Assembly (NCBI GenBank): GCA_023269765.1
Contig: JAGDWH010000007.1
Location: 1 to 6,273 of the forward strand
Length of the DNA: 6,273 nucleotides
Direction of reading: 5' to 3'
Origin: Desulfurococcaceae archaeon
Lineage (GTDB): Archaea > Thermoproteota > Thermoprotei_A > Sulfolobales > Desulfurococcaceae
Made by a program: the position numbers and the translations under genes. The notes below the pieces were generated by a model. It was not told the DNA's origin. It saw only the letters and a list, made by a program, of their open reading frames with translations, and ran no database searches. Shown in pieces: positions 181-6,268 of this stretch (the stretch's first letter is position 1; the number at the start of each line of letters is the position of its first letter).

Positions 181-468
181 ATGGTTAAATTGTGCCCGAG
201 ATGCGGCTCCGTAATGGTTCCTGTGAAAAAAGGCGACGACGTTTACTTAAAGTGCCCTAAGTGCGGCTTTGAGGTCAAGCCCAGAGAAGGCGTAAAGTAC
301 GGCATGAAGTATCAAGTAGAAAAATCAAAGAGAACAGCAACGGCCAGCGTTAGCGAGGGGCAGGAGTCGAAGCTAACGCCTGAAGAACGAGAAATGCTTA
401 AAGAGTACTACGAGATCTTCTTAGAGGAATTTGCACGCAGCGAAGTCGAGGAAGAGTCTGAAGAGTAG
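181..468 (+). CDS. Small zinc-ribbon protein, RNA polymerase subunit M/TFS N-terminal-like
   Basis: The 95-residue product begins with a zinc ribbon: CPRCG at residues 5-9 and CPKCG at 25-29, giving four Cys ligands (5, 8, 25, 28) with Gly-rich knuckles. This is the pattern of the N-terminal ribbon of Rpb9/TFS/TFIIS-related proteins (RNA polymerase subunit M, 15 kDa family). Full archaeal TFS is about 105-115 residues and has a second C-terminal ribbon carrying the acidic D-E hairpin that stimulates RNA cleavage. That ribbon is absent here. Instead, residues 33-63 form a Lys/Ser/Thr-rich linker, 65-85 look like one helix (LTPEEREMLKEYYEIFLEEF), and 86-95 are a very acidic tail. The protein probably docks on a transcription complex or nucleic acid through its ribbon but cannot act as a cleavage factor; that role is inference. 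The start has a good ribosome binding site, and the stop is doubled (TAGTAG). It sits between 5S rRNA and ABCE1, apparently as its own transcription unit. It could instead be an unrelated small zinc-ribbon protein. Confidence 0.8.
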   Translation: MVKLCPRCGSVMVPVKKGDDVYLKCPKCGFEVKPREGVKYGMKYQVEKSKRTATASVSEGQESKLTPEEREMLKEYYEIFLEEFARSEVEEESEE

Positions 469-722: not shown

Positions 723-2534
723 ATGGTTAGAGTGGCGGTTGTCGATAAGGACTACTGTAAGCCTAGCAAGTGCAATTTAGAGTGTATAAGGTTTTGTCCT
801 ATCAATAGAAGTAAGAAGAAGAAGGCAATAGACCTCTCAGAAGACAGGACAAGGGCAGTAATATACGAAGACGTCTGCATTGGCTGTGGTATATGCGTCA
901 AAAAGTGCCCATACAACGCTATTTCAATAGTGAACTTGCCAGATGAGCTTGAAAAAATTGTGGTACATAGATACGGCGAAAACGCCTTCAAGCTATATGG
1001 GCTTCCAATTCCCAGGCTAGGCCAAGTACTGGGCATTATAGGCCAAAACGGCGCGGGAAAGACAACCAGCATAAAAGTGCTATCCGGGCAGCTCAAGCCC
1101 AACCTGGGGAGGCTTAACAACCCTCCTGACTGGGATGAGATAATTAGGACTTTTCGAGGCACTGAATTGCAGTTTTATCTCGAGAAGCTTGCGAACAACG
1201 AAATAAGAGCCCTTGTCAAGCCACAGTACATAGAAGCAGCAAGAAGAGTTTTAAAGGGCACTGTAAGAGAACTTCTCGAGAAAGCCGACGAAAAAGGGGT
1301 TCTCAGAGAAGTCGTTCACGACCTGGCACTAGAAAGAGTGCTTGACAAAAAGGTCAGTGAGCTTAGCGGTGGCGAGCTCCAGAAAATGCTAATAGCAGCA
1401 TTACTCGTTAAGCAGGCAAACGCGTACTTCTTTGACGAGCCCTGCAGCTATCTCGACGTGAGAGAAAGACTAAGAGTCGCGAGGGCAATTAATAAGCACA
1501 CAAACCCTGAGAAAAACTACGTCGTAATAGTGGAACACGATCTCATGGTTCTAGATTACATAACAGACAACGTCGTCATCATTTACGGTGAACCAGGAGT
1601 ATTTGGCATATCTTCAAAGCCCTACAGCACTAGAGCTGGAATAAACCACTATTTGAGGGGCTACTTACCCGCCGAGAACATGAGAATTAGGAACGAGGAA
1701 GTAAGGTTCAGAATAACGGCGAAGTCCGAGGTTAAGCCCGAATTAACATATCCGCTACTAGCGTGGGATAGCATCTACTTCCAGTATCCTGGAGGCTTCA
1801 AGCTCCATGTTGAGAGTGGCGAGGTACACACAGGCGAAGTTGTAGGAGTCGTGGGGCCTAATGGAATCGGAAAGACGACTTTCATCAAGATCTTGGGAGG
1901 AGAGTTAAAACCCCTGCAAGGAGGGGTGCTGATATCAGCGAGCTCTATTAGTATTAAGCCGCAAGAGCTCTCTCCCAAGCTGTTCTCGGAAGAAACCGTC
2001 GCAGCCAATTTAAAAGCAGCATCGCCCCAAGCCCTAGACCCCTCTTCCTGGCTTTACGTGGAGCTGGTTAAGAGGCTAAGGCTCACTAAACTGCTCGAAA
2101 GGAGAGTAGATGAGCTGAGCGGAGGAGAACTACAAAAACTCGCCGTTGCTTGCGCTCTTGCGCGCGAAGCGGATTTGTACTTCCTCGACGAGCCGTCCGC
2201 GTATCTTGATGTCGAAGAAAGGGTAACTGTGGCGAGGACTATAAGAAGAGTCGTAGAAGGAAGAAACAAGGCAGCACTAGTTGTAGAGCACGACTTGCTA
2301 CTTCAAACATACGTAAGTGATAAAGTAATGGTTTTCTGGGGCGAGCCTGCTATTGAGGGAAAAGCAACAAAACCCCTAGAACCGCGGGAGGGCTTCAATA
2401 TATTGCTGCGTAACCTCGATGTAACTGTCAGAAGAGACCCAGAAACATGGAGACCTAGAGTAAACAAGCCAGGCTCGGTACTTGAGAGAGAACAAAAGTC
2501 GCGCGGGGAGTACTTCGCAGCAGAAGCAATTTAA
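723..2534 (+). CDS. abcE1: ABCE1/Rli1 ribosome recycling ATPase
   Basis: The 603-residue protein has the full ABCE1 layout. It is a soluble twin-ATPase that splits ribosomes into subunits after termination or rescue, working with aRF1 or Pelota. The N-terminal iron-sulfur domain has eight Cys in two groups (12, 17, 21, 25 and 52, 55, 58, 62; the second is the ferredoxin-like CIGCGICVKKCP) for two 4Fe-4S clusters. NBD1 has Walker A GQNGAGKTT (107-115), the ABCE1-specific helix-loop-helix insertion (PPDWDEIIRTFRGTELQ, 134-150), signature LSGGELQ (214-220), Walker B with D238-E239, and H-loop H272. NBD2 has Walker A GPNGIGKTT (378-386), signature LSGGELQ (465-471), Walker B LYFLDEP with D489-E490, D-loop SAYLD (492-496) and H-loop H523. 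No membrane segment is present. All catalytic residues and the usual length are retained. Walker A of NBD1 reads GQNGAG where most family members, as I recall, have GTNGIG; this is a mild variation. The gene appears to be transcribed alone from a leaderless promoter. Confidence 0.97.
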   Translation: MVRVAVVDKDYCKPSKCNLECIRFCPINRSKKKKAIDLSEDRTRAVIYEDVCIGCGICVKKCPYNAISIVNLPDELEKIVVHRYGENAFKLYGLPIPRLGQVLGIIGQNGAGKTTSIKVLSGQLKPNLGRLNNPPDWDEIIRTFRGTELQFYLEKLANNEIRALVKPQYIEAARRVLKGTVRELLEKADEKGVLREVVHDLALERVLDKKVSELSGGELQKMLIAALLVKQANAYFFDEPCSYLDVRERLRVARAINKHTNPEKNYVVIVEHDLMVLDYITDNVVIIYGEPGVFGISSKPYSTRAGINHYLRGYLPAENMRIRNEEVRFRITAKSEVKPELTYPLLAWDSIYFQYPGGFKLHVESGEVHTGEVVGVVGPNGIGKTTFIKILGGELKPLQGGVLISASSISIKPQELSPKLFSEETVAANLKAASPQALDPSSWLYVELVKRLRLTKLLERRVDELSGGELQKLAVACALAREADLYFLDEPSAYLDVEERVTVARTIRRVVEGRNKAALVVEHDLLLQTYVSDKVMVFWGEPAIEGKATKPLEPREGFNILLRNLDVTVRRDPETWRPRVNKPGSVLEREQKSRGEYFAAEAI

Positions 2535-2618: not shown

Positions 2619-3722
2619 ATGCCTGAGAAAGTAACCCTGTCCGTCATAAAAGCAGACGTAGGAAGCATAGCCGGACATCACATGGTGCACCCTGATCAGC
2701 TAGCAGCGGCGACGAAGGTCCTTGCTGAAGCTAAGCAAAAAGGTATACTAATAGACTTCTACGTAACGCACGTAGGTGACGACATACAACTAATAATGAC
2801 TCACACCAAGGGACCCGATCACCCAGACATACATGGACTAGCGTGGGAGGCCTTCAAAGCAGCCGCCAAAGTCGCGCGCGAACTAAAGCTATATGCAGCC
2901 GGCCAAGATCTCCTGTCTGAGGCCTTTTCAGGTAATGTTAGAGGACTTGGACCCGGCGTAGCAGAGCTTGAAATGGAGGAGAGAGCTTCAGAGCCTGTTG
3001 TGACTTTTCACGCGGATAAAACAGAACCAGGCGCATTTAACTTGCCAATGTTCAGGATATTCGCAGACCCGTTCAATACAGCGGGGCTTGTTATAGACCC
3101 TAAAATGCACGATGGCTTTATATTCGAGATTTACGACGTGTTTGAAGGCAAGAGCGTATTAATGAAGTCACCAGAAGAAATGTACGATATTCTTGCACTA
3201 ATAGGAACTACTGGAAGATACATCGTTAGAAGAGTCTATAGAAAAAGCGACAACCTGCTGGCAGCTGTTGTTAGTGTCGAGAGGCTTAACTTAATAGCAG
3301 GCAGGTATGTTGGGAAAGACGATCCAGTTGCCATAGTTAGGGCACAGCACGGCTTGCCCGCGCTTGGCGAGATACTAGAGGCATTTACACTACCTCACTT
3401 AGTAGCTGGATGGATGAGGGGCAGTCACTACGGACCATTGATGCCCGTCCCGATGAGGTACGCGAAGACAACGCGATTTGATGGACCACCAAGAGTCATT
3501 GCACTAGGATGGAACATTAGCAAAGGCAGGCTAATAGGGCCTGTTGACTTGTTCGACGACGTAGCCTTTGACGAGACGAGAAGGCTTGCACAGCTGATTG
3601 CAGAGTACATGAGAAGGCATGGCCCATTCATGCCACACAGACTAGGACCCGAGGAAATGGAATACACCACCCTACCACAAGTACTTGAAAAGCTCAAAGA
3701 CAGATTCGTCAAACTAGGATAA
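2619..3722 (+). CDS. fbp: Bifunctional fructose-1,6-bisphosphate aldolase/phosphatase
   Basis: The 367-residue product is a clear member of the archaeal type V FBPase family, the FBPA/P enzyme studied in Sulfolobus tokodaii and Thermoproteus neutrophilus. One Mg-dependent active site condenses dihydroxyacetone phosphate with glyceraldehyde 3-phosphate and then hydrolyses the 1-phosphate, making gluconeogenesis to fructose 6-phosphate effectively one-way. Family blocks visible are IKADVGSIAGHH (10-21, metal-binding Asp13), THVGDDIQLIMTH (50-62, Asp54/Asp55), AAGQDLLSEAFSGNVRGLGPG (near 93-113), ADKTEPGAFNLP (132-143), GRYVGKDDP (228-236), GWMRGSHYGPLMP (264-276), RFDGPP (286-291) and DLFDDVAFDETRRLA (310-324). 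Lys233 with Tyr230 corresponds to the Schiff-base lysine and its tyrosine (K232/Y229 in the studied enzymes), and Tyr349 to the mobile-loop tyrosine. The N-terminus fits the family. The C-terminus stops soon after the conserved LEKLKDRF and lacks the longer tail I recall in Sulfolobus. Triosephosphate isomerase, which balances its two substrates, lies 96 bases downstream. Confidence 0.97.
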   Translation: MPEKVTLSVIKADVGSIAGHHMVHPDQLAAATKVLAEAKQKGILIDFYVTHVGDDIQLIMTHTKGPDHPDIHGLAWEAFKAAAKVARELKLYAAGQDLLSEAFSGNVRGLGPGVAELEMEERASEPVVTFHADKTEPGAFNLPMFRIFADPFNTAGLVIDPKMHDGFIFEIYDVFEGKSVLMKSPEEMYDILALIGTTGRYIVRRVYRKSDNLLAAVVSVERLNLIAGRYVGKDDPVAIVRAQHGLPALGEILEAFTLPHLVAGWMRGSHYGPLMPVPMRYAKTTRFDGPPRVIALGWNISKGRLIGPVDLFDDVAFDETRRLAQLIAEYMRRHGPFMPHRLGPEEMEYTTLPQVLEKLKDRFVKLG

Positions 3723-3818: not shown

Positions 3819-4526
3819 ATGTCTGCCGAGAAACCCATTTTAGCAGTCAACTACAAGGCCTACTACCCCCACAGCTTCGGTAAACATGCAATTGAAATAG
3901 CTAGAGCAGCCGTTAGAGTAAAGAGCGAGCTGGACGTTGAAATAATACTGGCTCCGCCCTTTACTGAGCTCTATAGAATACTCCAAGAAGTAGAAGGCAC
4001 CGGCATAAAAGTTTATGCACAGCACGCAGACCCTCTAGAGCCGGGGGCCATCACGGGGTATCTGCCCCTTGAAGGACTAAAAGAACTCGGTGTACACGGC
4101 GTTATTGTAAATCACAGCGAACACAGGCTTAAACTATCTGAAATACACTACATCATTAAGAAAGCCCGTGACTTAGGCCTCGAAGTTCTCGCCTGCGCAG
4201 ATGTGCCTGAAACGGGCGCTGCAATTGCTGTTTTAGAACCCCATATGGTAGCTGTGGAGCCGCCGGAGCTCATAGGTACGGGGGTGAGCGTTAGCAGAGC
4301 GAAACCAGAAGTTATAACAAGGAGCGTGGAGCTGATTAAGAGAGTGAACCCCCATGTAAAGATCCTCACGGGTGCCGGCATATCAACAGGCGAAGACGTA
4401 TACAAGGCAATCAAGCTGGGAACCGTTGGCGTCTTAGTGGCCTCTGCCATAGTCAAAGCAAAGGACGTGTATTCCGTAATTAGAGAAATGGCTCAAAACG
4501 CCCTTAGAGCGTTTGAAGAAGATTAA
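3819..4526 (+). CDS. tpiA: Triosephosphate isomerase (archaeal short form)
   Basis: The 235-residue protein interconverts dihydroxyacetone phosphate and glyceraldehyde 3-phosphate in the cytoplasm. The catalytic set is complete: Asn11 and Lys13 in AVNYKAY (9-15), His99 in NHSEHR (98-103, where bacterial and eukaryotic forms have GHSERR), and Glu147 in AVEPPELIGTG (145-155). The latter runs into the mobile loop 6 (ELIGTGVSVS, 150-159). The phosphate-binding GAGIST (185-190) and LVASAIV (206-212) close the barrel. Length is about 15-20 residues under the 250 of bacterial and eukaryotic enzymes, because helices are trimmed; this is typical of archaeal, usually tetrameric, thermostable forms. The ATG has the best ribosome binding site in the window. 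Its position straight after FBP aldolase/phosphatase puts two consecutive gluconeogenic activities together. The tRNA-Thr begins only 31 bases after the stop. Confidence 0.97.
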   Translation: MSAEKPILAVNYKAYYPHSFGKHAIEIARAAVRVKSELDVEIILAPPFTELYRILQEVEGTGIKVYAQHADPLEPGAITGYLPLEGLKELGVHGVIVNHSEHRLKLSEIHYIIKKARDLGLEVLACADVPETGAAIAVLEPHMVAVEPPELIGTGVSVSRAKPEVITRSVELIKRVNPHVKILTGAGISTGEDVYKAIKLGTVGVLVASAIVKAKDVYSVIREMAQNALRAFEED

Positions 4527-4557: not shown

Positions 4558-4659
4558 GCCGCCGTAGCTCAGCCAGGTAGAGCGCCGGCCTCGTAAGGCC
4601 TTATTGGAACCGAAGTCGGGGAAAGCCGGTGGTCGCGGGTTCAAATCCCGCCGGCGGCT
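4558..4659 (+). tRNA. tRNA-Thr(CGT), intron-containing
   Basis: A full cloverleaf can be drawn. The acceptor GCCGCCG (4558-4564) pairs with CGGCGGC (4652-4658). The D stem is GCTC/GAGC (4567-4570 with 4580-4583) with loop AGCCAGGTA. The anticodon stem CCGGC (4585-4589) pairs with GCCGG (4625-4629). The variable loop is TGGTC, and the T arm is GCGGG-TTCAAAT-CCCGC (4635-4651). The discriminator is T at 4659, and CCA is not encoded. After removal of a 28-base intron the anticodon loop is CTCGTAA with anticodon CGT (4592-4594), so the tRNA reads ACG as threonine. G1-C72 and C2-G71 agree with what I recall as archaeal threonine identity pairs. The mature length is 74 bases before CCA addition. It follows the isomerase gene by 31 bases on the same strand and may be processed from that transcript. 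The reading is secure; the exact intron ends are ambiguous by a base because both junctions sit in A runs. Confidence 0.96.
4596..4623 (+). other. tRNA intron at the canonical 37/38 site
   Basis: The 28-base insertion between A37 (4595) and A38 (4624) is at the standard archaeal position and can be folded toward a bulge-helix-bulge, the substrate of the splicing endonuclease. The bulges are TA|A at the 5' junction and AA|A at the 3' junction. Between them C32, T33 and C34 pair with G4621, G4620 and G4619, but the fourth pair would be a G35-G4618 mismatch. The inner intron arm pairs 4597-4602 with 4612-4617 around a 9-base loop, with one C-A mismatch and G-U pairs. The motif is therefore slightly relaxed, as is common in crenarchaea with the heterotetrameric endonuclease. 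Confidence 0.85.
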
Positions 4660-4749: not shown

Positions 4750-5955
4750 CTATTTCAGGAAAAAGCTCTTAATTTTCTCAATTAGCTTAGCGCTTTCCTC
4801 GACTGCTTCGCGTGGTTTAAGCTCAATTACATCGAATTCTCTGCACTTTAAGTTGCTTAGGAACCTTTTAACTTCCTCGCTTTTGGCCCCCCATCCATAG
4901 ACATTTATAAACAACACCTTATTACACCCGGTTTTGTGAGCAGTAATTTCTAAGACCCATCTCACTAAGGGGTTTAGCTGGTTTTCGTAAACAGGGGCGG
5001 CCACGAGCAGTCCCTCGGCACCCAGGGCGTCTGAAACTACTTCGCTAACCAACGATCTTTCGGTATCCGTGAACTTGTATGTTTTAACTTCAAATCCTGC
5101 TTCGGCGAGCGACTTAGCGGCATCTTCGGCTATTTTTTCCGTAAATCTGTACATTGAACCATAGATTACTACTATTCGCTTTTCCCTCTTAGAAGACCAG
5201 TCCTCGTACATCTCCAGGAGTTTGAGCGCTTCATCCCTACTGAGCACTAATCCGTGTGCTGGTGCAATGTAATCCGACTTCAAGATTACTTCCTTCAGCT
5301 TGCTGGCAGATCTCAGTACAAACTCCCTATAGTGACCTACGACATCAGCAAAGTACTTCTTAGCAATCTTGAAGTACGCTGCCCTTTCTCCCTCGCTTAA
5401 TTCGCTCAAGAAGACCTGCTCGAAACCACCAAATGACCCAAAGACATCACAGGTAAAGCCCACTCTCAAGTCTTCAACGAAGGTTACTATGGTTTCTGGC
5501 CAGTGGAGCCAGGGAGTGTGCACAAACTTGAACTTTAGGCCTCCTATAGCTACTTCTTCGCCGTCTGATACGGGCTTGAAGTCCGGCTCAGCACCGTAGA
5601 AGTCTCTAATCATGTTCTTCGCCATGATGTGTCCCAAGACTTTTAACCTAGGGTTAGATTTCAAGAGCTCCGGTAGCGTGCCTGCGTGGTCTGGCTCTAA
5701 GTGGTTTGTGATTACGTGCGTCAGCCGGTTCAAAACCCCAAGTTCTTCGAGCTTCTTTAAGAGAAGCCCGCCCCAACCCCTTTTCCAGCCGTCAATTAGT
5801 ACAAATCCACTAGACGTTTCAACTAAGTAGGCATTGTACGAAACTCCCTCTGGTATTTCCCATAGCGCCTCGAAGTACCTCGTAGCTCTATCTACGAGCT
5901 TGAGGATTTTCACGCCCGGCTTAACATCTCTTATTAAGACTTCGCAGCCGACCAT
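4750..5955 (-). CDS. fprA: Class A flavodiiron protein (FprA/ROO-like O2 or NO reductase)
   Basis: The 401-residue protein (from ATG at 5955) joins a metallo-beta-lactamase-like diiron domain (about 1-250) to a flavodoxin domain with FMN (about 258-400). It reduces O2 to water, or NO to N2O, in the cytoplasm. Diiron ligands are visible: H85, E87 and D89 in NHLEPDHAG (84-92), H151 in PWLHWPET (148-155), D170 in FTCDVFGS (167-174) and H234 in APAHG (231-235). The flavodoxin phosphate loop is YGSMYRFTEKIA (265-276), with further flavin-binding segments at APVYENQLNP (320-329) and NVYGWGAKS (351-359). YFEALWEIPEGVSYNAYLV (27-45) is the usual N-terminal strand pair. There is no C-terminal rubredoxin or flavin reductase domain, so an outside donor such as rubredoxin is needed; none is in the window. 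The reading frame extends upstream to a GTG at 6108, adding 51 residues without family resemblance. I prefer 5955 on homology, yet the only good promoter fits the GTG, so the start is unsettled. It likely protects an anaerobe from oxygen. Confidence 0.93.
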   Translation of the reverse strand: MVGCEVLIRDVKPGVKILKLVDRATRYFEALWEIPEGVSYNAYLVETSSGFVLIDGWKRGWGGLLLKKLEELGVLNRLTHVITNHLEPDHAGTLPELLKSNPRLKVLGHIMAKNMIRDFYGAEPDFKPVSDGEEVAIGGLKFKFVHTPWLHWPETIVTFVEDLRVGFTCDVFGSFGGFEQVFLSELSEGERAAYFKIAKKYFADVVGHYREFVLRSASKLKEVILKSDYIAPAHGLVLSRDEALKLLEMYEDWSSKREKRIVVIYGSMYRFTEKIAEDAAKSLAEAGFEVKTYKFTDTERSLVSEVVSDALGAEGLLVAAPVYENQLNPLVRWVLEITAHKTGCNKVLFINVYGWGAKSEEVKRFLSNLKCREFDVIELKPREAVEESAKLIEKIKSFFLK

Positions 5956-6133
5956 GCACTTGGACGCGCCTGAAATGCCGTTCAAGCCCAATCCCACGGC
6001 TAGTAGATGCGACCTGTAGCTAAAAAACCAAGCACACGGTAGCCAATAGGTCTCGGCAAAAAGTACTACGTGCTTGTGCAGCGCGGCTTCAAAGCTGAGA
6101 CTATTCACCGAAAAGCACGCCTAGCAGGATAAA

Positions 6134-6143
6134 TTTATATAAA
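6134..6143. promoter_or_regulatory. Perfectly palindromic TATA box, divergent promoter
   Basis: TTTATATAAA is its own reverse complement and lies in the AT-rich divergent gap between the flavodiiron gene (minus) and the Glu/Trp repeat frame (plus). Read leftward it predicts a start near 6112, a few bases before the GTG at 6108. Read rightward it predicts a start near 6165, about 23 bases before the TTG at 6188, with the G-rich ribosome binding site inside that leader. Flanking A/T runs on both sides (AAA to the left; AATAATTTTTAA to the right) leave the BRE, which sets direction, undetermined. It could drive both genes or only one. Confidence 0.55.
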
Positions 6144-6174
6144 ATAATTTTTAAGCGTGCTCAGGAAGGTAATT

Positions 6175-6181
6175 GGGGGGA
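6175..6181 (+). promoter_or_regulatory. Possible ribosome binding site (GGGGGGA) for the Glu/Trp peptide
   Basis: A run of six G and an A ends seven bases before the TTG at 6188. It can pair with the pyrimidine-rich 16S rRNA 3' end, though less specifically than GAGGTGA. Its spacing suits the TTG at 6188 and not the TTG at 6198 in another frame (17 bases). Confidence 0.4.
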
Positions 6182-6187
6182 CGAGAC

Positions 6188-6268
6188 TTGAAGTGGCTTG
6201 AAGAAGAGTGGGAGGAGGAGTGGGAGGAAGAAGAGTGGGAAGAGGAAGAGTGGGAGGAGGAGTGGTAG
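6188..6268 (+). CDS. Tiny Glu/Trp repeat peptide, unknown function
   Basis: The frame TTG AAG TGG CTT leads into Glu runs punctuated by Trp and ends in TAG at 6266-6268, giving 26 residues: MKWL, then EEEW, EEEW, EEEEW, EEEEW, EEEW. Seventeen residues are Glu and six are Trp (positions 3, 8, 12, 17, 22, 26). An in-frame TTG at 6173 would add five residues; a TAA at 6170-6172 blocks anything longer. A G-rich ribosome binding site and a TATA box stand at fitting distances upstream. The repeat units differ in length only by whole codons, and the Glu codons differ only at the third base (6 GAA, 11 GAG), as expected if the peptide is translated and selected. Against this, both other plus frames are also open here, since the strand is nearly all purine. 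I do not recognise any family. The mean Trp spacing of 4.6 does not give a single-sided alpha helix or a heptad. It could be a leader peptide, a small acidic structural peptide, or an untranslated purine repeat. Confidence 0.4.
   Translation: MKWLEEEWEEEWEEEEWEEEEWEEEW
6206..6265 (+). repeat. In-frame GAR-TGG minisatellite (units of 12 and 15 bases)
   Basis: The segment consists of TGG triplets separated by blocks of three or four GAA/GAG triplets, giving units of 12, 15, 15 and 12 bases. The plus strand is purine-only apart from the T of each TGG. Regular GGG tracts (6210-6212, 6222-6224, 6237-6239, 6252-6254), plus the G6 run at 6175, could allow a G-quadruplex with long loops or a purine-strand triplex. 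That is a possibility from composition only. Confidence 0.8.

Follow-up and report, generated by a model that had tools for sequence, protein, structure and literature searches.

The window analyzed here is a stretch of 6,273 nucleotides from a Desulfurococcaceae archaeon. It holds the following features.

181 to 468, plus strand: TFS-like protein with a single zinc ribbon and, behind it, an acidic tail; recurrent neighbor (26 of 76 loci).
723 to 2534, plus strand: ABCE1 (Rli1), the ribosome-recycling ATPase (Pfam Fer4_RLI and ABC_tran), a recurrent neighbor.
2619 to 3722, plus strand: fructose-1,6-bisphosphatase (Pfam FBPase_3), a recurrent neighbor (32 of 76 loci).
3819 to 4526, plus strand: triosephosphate isomerase (Pfam TIM), a recurrent neighbor (28 of 76 loci).
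4558 to 4659, plus strand: tRNA gene.
4750 to 6108, minus strand: A-type flavodiiron protein in a 452-residue reading (Pfam ODP/flavodoxin), not a conserved neighbor of the micro-ORF.
6134 to 6143, plus strand: TATA-like box, TTTATATAAA, 45 to 54 nt ahead of the start codon.
6173 to 6187, plus strand: extension opened by an in-frame upstream TTG, which would give a 31-residue alternative; judged to be 5' leader.
6175 to 6180, plus strand: G-rich Shine-Dalgarno-like motif, 7 nt ahead of the TTG start.
6188 to 6268, plus strand: Glu/Trp micro-ORF of 26 residues, with a TTG start and a TAG stop.

Thus, the order is zinc ribbon, ABCE1, fructose bisphosphatase, triosephosphate isomerase, tRNA, flavodiiron protein (on the opposite strand), and micro-ORF, the last separated from the upstream ABCE1 by 3.65 kb and by other genes. 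The protein at 181 to 468, which recurs beside ABCE1 and the micro-ORF, has the N-terminal zinc ribbon only and then an acidic tail. Rfam, but not ARAGORN, finds the tRNA gene, whose length of 102 bp makes an intron probable.

The micro-ORF begins TTG AAG TGG CTT, continues with runs of three, three, four, four, and three Glu codons split by Trp codons, and ends with a TAG directly 3' of the last Trp codon, five bases from the window edge. Its product reads M-K-W-L, then EEEW twice, EEEEW twice, and EEEW once, which makes six Trp and 17 Glu. The repeat units differ in length by whole codons, and their Glu codons vary at the third base only. Tandem Repeats Finder, run on the window, returns periods of 12 and 15 bases, which are units one codon apart. 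A 21-base degenerate unit pattern, composed after the unit had been seen, occurs twice in the window and never in 200 shuffles. An earlier note on this DNA had described the 26-residue Glu/Trp frame with its whole-codon changes and its wobble-only Glu variation, and had placed around it a TTG start, a run of G seven nt upstream, a TATA-like box, and a stop right after the last Trp; all of these are indeed in the sequence. The upstream TTG at 6173 is assigned to the leader because close relatives begin at the codon matching 6188 (MKW.., VKW.., LKW..), several with a GGGG motif before it.

The same note proposed that this is a selected micro-protein. Such a proposal is best judged by asking how relatives have drifted. 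Among 16 independent pairs of micro-ORFs at least 85% identical, a threshold that biases pN downward, we count 132.5 synonymous and 25.5 non-synonymous differences, for a pN/pS of 0.022; 134 of the differences fall at third positions and 24 at first or second positions. For 31 same-length pairs taken closest first, with no identity threshold, the ratio is 0.12, and for 12 pairs from loci that do not lie immediately ahead of ABCE1 it is 0.10, both of these being upper bounds, because the later pairs join distant sequences without alignment. Within the 31 threshold-free pairs, the first twelve differ by 59 synonymous changes and one non-synonymous change.

Seven relatives (L106, L107, L109, L110, L121-L123), compared with the window, differ at 6 to 11 of the 17 Glu codons, always synonymously, with no non-synonymous difference and all 22 repeat residues in common. 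These seven were, of course, selected for having the window's unit order, and the identity of their residues is therefore by choice; the informative part of the comparison is the free nucleotide drift at silent sites. Other near relatives vary by whole codons, and in two genomes (G001 and G082) a Trp has become Pro. Frame-breaking indels or non-synonymous drift in relatives had been named in advance as what would tell against selection. The search for them was run, and the proposal survived it.

The flanking signals recur as well. At -22 to -3, 67 of 78 loci (the window among them) have a Shine-Dalgarno-like motif; control windows taken further upstream have one in 3, 6, and 8 of 78. For GGTG alone, the counts are 50 of 78 at -22 to -3 and 1 to 3 in the controls. 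TATA-like words lie at -60 to -25 in 42 of 78. Over the same 78 loci, the start codon is ATG in 51, TTG in 19, and GTG in 8, although the filter that defines a micro-ORF takes the start giving the purest composition, so that some true starts will be a few codons further upstream. That filter was positive in 41 of 60 ABCE1 regions, hand-chosen and enriched for pattern-positive genomes, and in none of the 60 reversed sequences. This comparison of codons and signals supports the reading of 6188 to 6268 as a protein-coding microgene conserved at the amino-acid level, rather than a product of chance. The Shine-Dalgarno-like motifs suggest, indirectly, that it is expressed.

The same drift could, in principle, be read on the other strand. 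Here, the DNA would be a purine-rich repeat, or would encode a His/Ser-rich C-terminal tail of an opposing gene (HSSSHSSSSH in the minus-strand frame). Third-base changes in Glu codons would be equally silent in that Ser frame, and the frame is open up to the window edge. However, in four of ten relatives read on the minus strand (L121, L123, L125, and L127) the stop of the opposing gene closes the frame just before the His/Ser run, and no start codon lies between that stop and the run; in the remaining relatives, the opposing gene's stop is in another frame. Further, the starts and the Shine-Dalgarno-like motifs sit on the plus strand, and the Asp-containing members L284 and L285 preserve the plus-strand logic in different DNA. 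A minus-strand or DNA-repeat origin is thus highly improbable, and the His/Ser tail was rejected on the four stops and the plus-strand starts and motifs.

How widely is the microgene spread? Of 214 genomes in the order, 33 were matched by a pattern that took no account of location, versus six for the reversed control pattern, and 31 of the 33 proved to hold Glu/Trp micro-ORFs; the other two (G043 and G054) are chance matches. The loci L091, L092, L184, and L202 were dropped as chance matches. In an even sampling of the phylum, a related pattern matched 212 of 398 genomes, versus 13 for its control. With the filter relaxed, a micro-ORF is present in each of the 30 phylum loci that were read, from 30 genomes, one of them being just 15 residues long; these 30 are a part of the 212 and not a random draw from them, the rest being counted at the level of the pattern. 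A Vulcanisaeta genome (G218) and a Thermofilum genome (G223) have one match each, also at the pattern level.

Six genomes (G399, G431, G456, G510, G664, and G684) match at two or more places, one of the two places in G431 being at a contig end; these may carry more than one Glu/Trp ORF. The marginal members are L297 (15 residues), L309 (18 residues), and L142, where a 12-residue minimal form, MRWFEEEWEEEW, at 1895 to 1933 on the minus strand and about 4.8 kb from ABCE1, is either genuinely short or truncated. In Terraquivivens (L213, 1391 to 1531, plus strand), a 46-residue version has Phe instead of Trp and lies 6.3 kb from ABCE1.

Five of seven genomes match in the class of a Bathyarchaeota MAG. 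In the phylum of a Baldrarchaeota MAG, 16 of 148 genomes match, resolving into five micro-ORFs, one likely stray contig, and ten matches within long proteins. The last (L243 and L245-L253) lie inside proteins of 360 to 480 residues and were dropped as chance. The five (L272-L276) are acidic, Trp-rich ORFs of 30 to 67 residues, some of which contain WPEEE units; their contexts are distinct, and ABCE1 is not adjacent. The remaining locus (L256/L277, genome G295), which was retained among the 78, looks like a stray Desulfurococcales contig: its ABCE1 is 66% identical to that of the window and has the same neighbors.

In the window, the nearest gene to the microgene encodes the flavodiiron protein, and the earlier note suggested looking for such repeats beside flavodiiron genes. 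A tie between the two was not supported. Across 80 flavodiiron loci (926 kb, strict filter), the micro-ORF is absent. A contig scan with a flavodiiron alignment put two Thermogladius genomes and two Desulfurococcaceae MAGs first (G001-G004); a scan with the single flavodiiron protein returned no relative. The flavodiiron loci of these four lack the micro-ORF, though all four genomes carry one, each with an ATG start (MLWL-EEEW.. in G001 and G002, MKWLL-EEEW.. in G003 and G004). The closest relatives of the flavodiiron protein, from Thermogladius and other Desulfurococcaceae, are at most 55% identical to it. Since L105 and L106 have triosephosphate isomerase and then the micro-ORF, with no flavodiiron gene between, that gene appears to have been inserted in the window. 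To judge from these comparisons, it is an incidental neighbor. Its 452-residue reading exceeds most aligned relatives (390 to 417 residues, one of 444), and its true start is probably near 5955, which would leave 5956 to 6108 on the minus strand outside the gene.

The recurrent neighbor is ABCE1. Of the 31 carrier genomes of the order, found without regard to location, 28 have the micro-ORF within 6.2 kb of ABCE1: 26 at 89 to 6199 bp, and two (G197 and G203) directly upstream of it. In the contigs read for the other three (G192, G208, and G210), no such linkage is seen. Within the phylum, ABCE1 lies inside the same 3-kb locus in 20 of the 30 loci read and is 2.3 kb off in G581. The micro-ORF is 41 kb from ABCE1 in G561 and on another contig in G388, G417, G458, G571, G594, and G629. 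When ten genomes were re-searched, only three had a match within 0.5 kb of ABCE1, the nearest among the other seven being at about 12 kb; these ten overlap with the unlinked cases just named, and most of their matches were counted as pattern and not as ORF.

Examined from the side of ABCE1, 32 of 80 regions lack the micro-ORF under the strict filter (19 of 60, and 13 of 20 in a second set, whose other seven have it). The 32 include Ignicoccus, Caldisphaera, Thermofilum, and Vulcanisaeta; they also include L142, with its 12 residues only, L213, with the Phe version only, and some short contigs. Five of these negative genomes (G010, G035, G050, G075, and G076) hold the micro-ORF elsewhere. In loci of the Desulfurococcaceae type the micro-ORF stands apart from ABCE1, being divergent from the TFS-like zinc-ribbon gene, or after triosephosphate isomerase, or near pyruvate kinase or enolase. 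Taken over all of these genomes, the evidence supports a widespread coding microgene, biased to the ABCE1 locus, in the phylum of the nearest named relatives.

Other neighbors deserve mention. In 26 of 76 loci (L093-L111; for example L107, 1561 to 2049, minus strand), an opposing gene of about 160 residues ends 1 to 66 bp past the stop of the micro-ORF; tested examples of it have no match in NCBIfam and no convincing one in Pfam or PDB. In L310-L315, forms of about 40 residues with a Glu/Trp body, five of them with a basic head such as MSRRKTPPK, adjoin an 8-oxoguanine DNA glycosylase (Pfam Ogg-HhH in L310; L311-L315 assigned by likeness). In L280, L281, L286, L287, and L316 the neighbors are a radical-SAM/UPF0004/TRAM enzyme, an aldehyde ferredoxin oxidoreductase (AFOR) with a HEAT-repeat protein, or HypD, by Pfam runs on L280, L286, and L316. 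The radical-SAM/UPF0004 enzyme, AFOR, and HypD are Fe-S cluster proteins. Their genes lie on the strand opposite to the micro-ORF, and are not in operons with it.

As for the peptides themselves, Glu makes up 69% and Trp 19% of their residues over 78 loci; Asp, Leu, and Phe contribute 2 to 3% each. Their lengths run from 12 to 67 residues, mostly 24 to 43, and the aromatic residues are most often 1, 4, or 5 apart, although the spacing is not fixed. The ends are more regular. Among 94 unique sequences, 76 have Trp at the C-terminus, compared with 15% Trp inside (a binomial test on this contrast ignores kinship), and 78 end in Trp or Phe, the window's member being one that ends in Trp. Glu occupies position -2 in 89 of the 94 and position -3 in 91. 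Glu is itself last in 16 of 78 loci. Had the stop arisen out of a Trp codon, the peptide would end in Glu, and so this route does not explain the C-terminal Trp. A single-sequence AlphaFold model of the 31-residue reading is one helix (pLDDT 90.5, pTM 0.47), on which six Trp at uneven spacing would form no single aromatic face.

What might such a peptide do? The account that we favor, tentatively and with a probability of roughly 0.4, is that it acts in trans, as a small acidic, aromatic partner of ABCE1 that is made with it. Here, the product of the micro-ORF would be synthesized together with ABCE1; as a rod of acidic and aromatic residues, it would bind to a basic surface, either on ABCE1 or on the 30S subunit that ABCE1 occupies; its free C-terminal Trp would be the recognition end; and the peptide would aid the maturation of ABCE1 or its recycling cycles. 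Action in trans is suggested by the conservation of the peptide at loci where it does not precede ABCE1, and service to ABCE1 or to the recycling 30S subunit by the recurrence of the microgene near ABCE1 in distant lineages. We count for the partner model the synonymous drift, the Shine-Dalgarno-like motifs, the location-blind linkage, the C-terminal Trp, and the helix model. Against it we count the ABCE1 regions without the ORF, the unlinked copies beside the glycosylase, the radical-SAM enzyme, AFOR, and HypD, the re-searched genomes that were mostly unlinked, the Glu-ended members, and the Trp spacing that is not fixed.

Another idea would make the location a matter of company. The peptide might be a general polyanion, a nucleic-acid mimic or a chaperone for basic ribosomal or chromatin proteins, with its place near ABCE1 reflecting co-expression with translation genes. 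Its composition and its loosely kept spacing fit this, as does the existence of contexts without ABCE1; further, 38 of 76 loci, mostly ones fetched around ABCE1, share a gene cluster that includes eS17. Nevertheless, the linkage to ABCE1 emerges when location is ignored, tight in the order and frequent in the phylum, and bulk charge would not call for anything as specific as a conserved Trp at the C-terminus. We consider the general polyanion unlikely.

The partner model must also be weighed against one in which the micro-ORF is a leader of ABCE1. In 44 of 47 loci preselected for that arrangement, the micro-ORF precedes ABCE1 on its strand by 48 to 385 bp. There, its translation might sense recycling capacity and tune ABCE1 in cis, either because the acidic nascent chain pauses or destabilizes ribosomes, or because poor recycling at the stop allows reinitiation at ABCE1. 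Precedents exist: early acidic residues, as in the leader MgtL, pause or dissociate E. coli ribosomes, an effect that the ABC-F protein EttA relieves (PMC11282234). MgtL and an intergenic Salmonella ORF (PMC8092293), acidic leaders that work through intrinsic ribosome destabilization, share with the Glu/Trp ORF a short length, an early acidic cluster, which in the window falls within the first 30 codons, and a frequent position upstream of a same-strand gene. The Glu/Trp ORF differs in being usually Trp-ended, an end for which a leader has no obvious need, and in being kept even where ABCE1 does not follow. Indeed, the window's micro-ORF and its Desulfurococcaceae-type relatives lie outside the 5' leader of ABCE1, and close pairs among them still differ almost only synonymously. 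Finally, several loci show, by eye, T-rich tracts and TATA-like words in the stretch from the micro-ORF to ABCE1, which suggest separate transcripts. Such a leader is quite unlikely.

A different kind of leader was raised by the earlier note, a peptide sensing the charging of Trp or Glu tRNA. The composition, rich in both, invites this attenuator model, but among identified downstream neighbors no gene for Trp or Glu biosynthesis or for a cognate synthetase was recognized, and the next gene is the opposing one in the 26 loci noted above, or often ABCE1. The model is scarcely credible.

The C-terminal Trp brings to mind another precedent. ABCE1 carries two [4Fe-4S] clusters, and its maturation requires the terminal Trp of eukaryotic Lto1 (ORAOV1) (PMC4523923), the protein that hands ABCE1/Rli1 to the cluster-targeting complex. 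The targeting signal is given in PMC10623007 as [LIM]-[DES]-[WF]-COOH. By analogy, the Glu/Trp peptide might load Fe-S clusters onto ABCE1 as an adaptor, its dominant Glu-Trp-COOH end working as the CIA signal does. The Trp after an acidic residue and the tie to ABCE1 are common to both, and three of the contexts that lack ABCE1 adjoin the Fe-S proteins named above. Further, the Cia2-related family PF01883 is present in 18 of 18 genomes tested; it is equally present, however, in eight genomes with no known micro-ORF, and so discriminates nothing. Other details fit poorly. Residue -3 is Glu rather than Leu, Ile, or Met; the radical-SAM, AFOR, and HypD genes form no operons with the micro-ORF; and the glycosylase context does not fit, as far as is known. 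In the archaeal homologs compared in PMC10623007 the signal is missing, and two of 248 Fe-S proteins of E. coli and M. jannaschii end in Trp. The deca-GX3 motif, through which Lto1 pairs with Yae1, is absent too: the window's peptide has no Gly, Gly is 0.6% over 78 members, and the entire protein, unlike Lto1, is Glu and Trp. Because both residue -3 and the deca-GX3 motif disagree, we do not file the peptide under Lto1 or the CIA signal, although it may work as that signal does. We hold the adaptor model to be quite improbable.

The analogy has a bolder form, a longer shot still. Archaea might have a client-targeting system in which a Glu/Trp microprotein encoded near its client, ABCE1 above all, hands that client through its EEE-Trp-COOH end to a Cia2-like or ApbC-like machine. 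If this is true, the code by which eukaryotic Fe-S assembly reads a C-terminal Trp would have an archaeal counterpart encoded in trans.

The earlier note could tie the composition to no known family, and neither can we. The window's peptide matched no family in Pfam (E up to 1), NCBIfam, or PADLOC (E up to 0.01 in both), nor did L180 in Pfam and NCBIfam or L143 in Pfam. A PDB sequence search with two members gave no match at E up to 10, short low-complexity queries being a weak probe. A protein database search gave three candidates and no match for a 43-residue member, and no candidate for a 41-residue member, a weak test probably limited by low-complexity words. Among open-licence papers, searches for such a peptide or for the neighborhood of ABCE1 brought up none that describes it. 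We call the Glu/Trp microprotein a new kind of protein, with a putative function.

It may also be set beside aS33 and aS34, archaeal proteins of the small ribosomal subunit that were likewise once unannotated small translation proteins, and which occur in overlapping lineages (Desulfurococcales and Sulfolobales), aS33 also in a few Bathyarchaeota (PMC11698992). These are ribosomal proteins with solved structures, the one in the beak having about 80 residues and two zinc motifs, whereas the Glu/Trp peptide is shorter, acidic, and has no match in PDB.

We found no counterpart to a protein family built essentially of two amino acids, spread through a phylum, and placed repeatedly near ABCE1. The peptide would be an added player in ribosome recycling or in the maturation of ABCE1, both of which are central and shared with eukaryotes. 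Genetics exists in the Sulfolobales. The case also suggests that low-complexity microproteins escape gene finders and homology searches, and that synteny, combined with codon comparison, recovers them.
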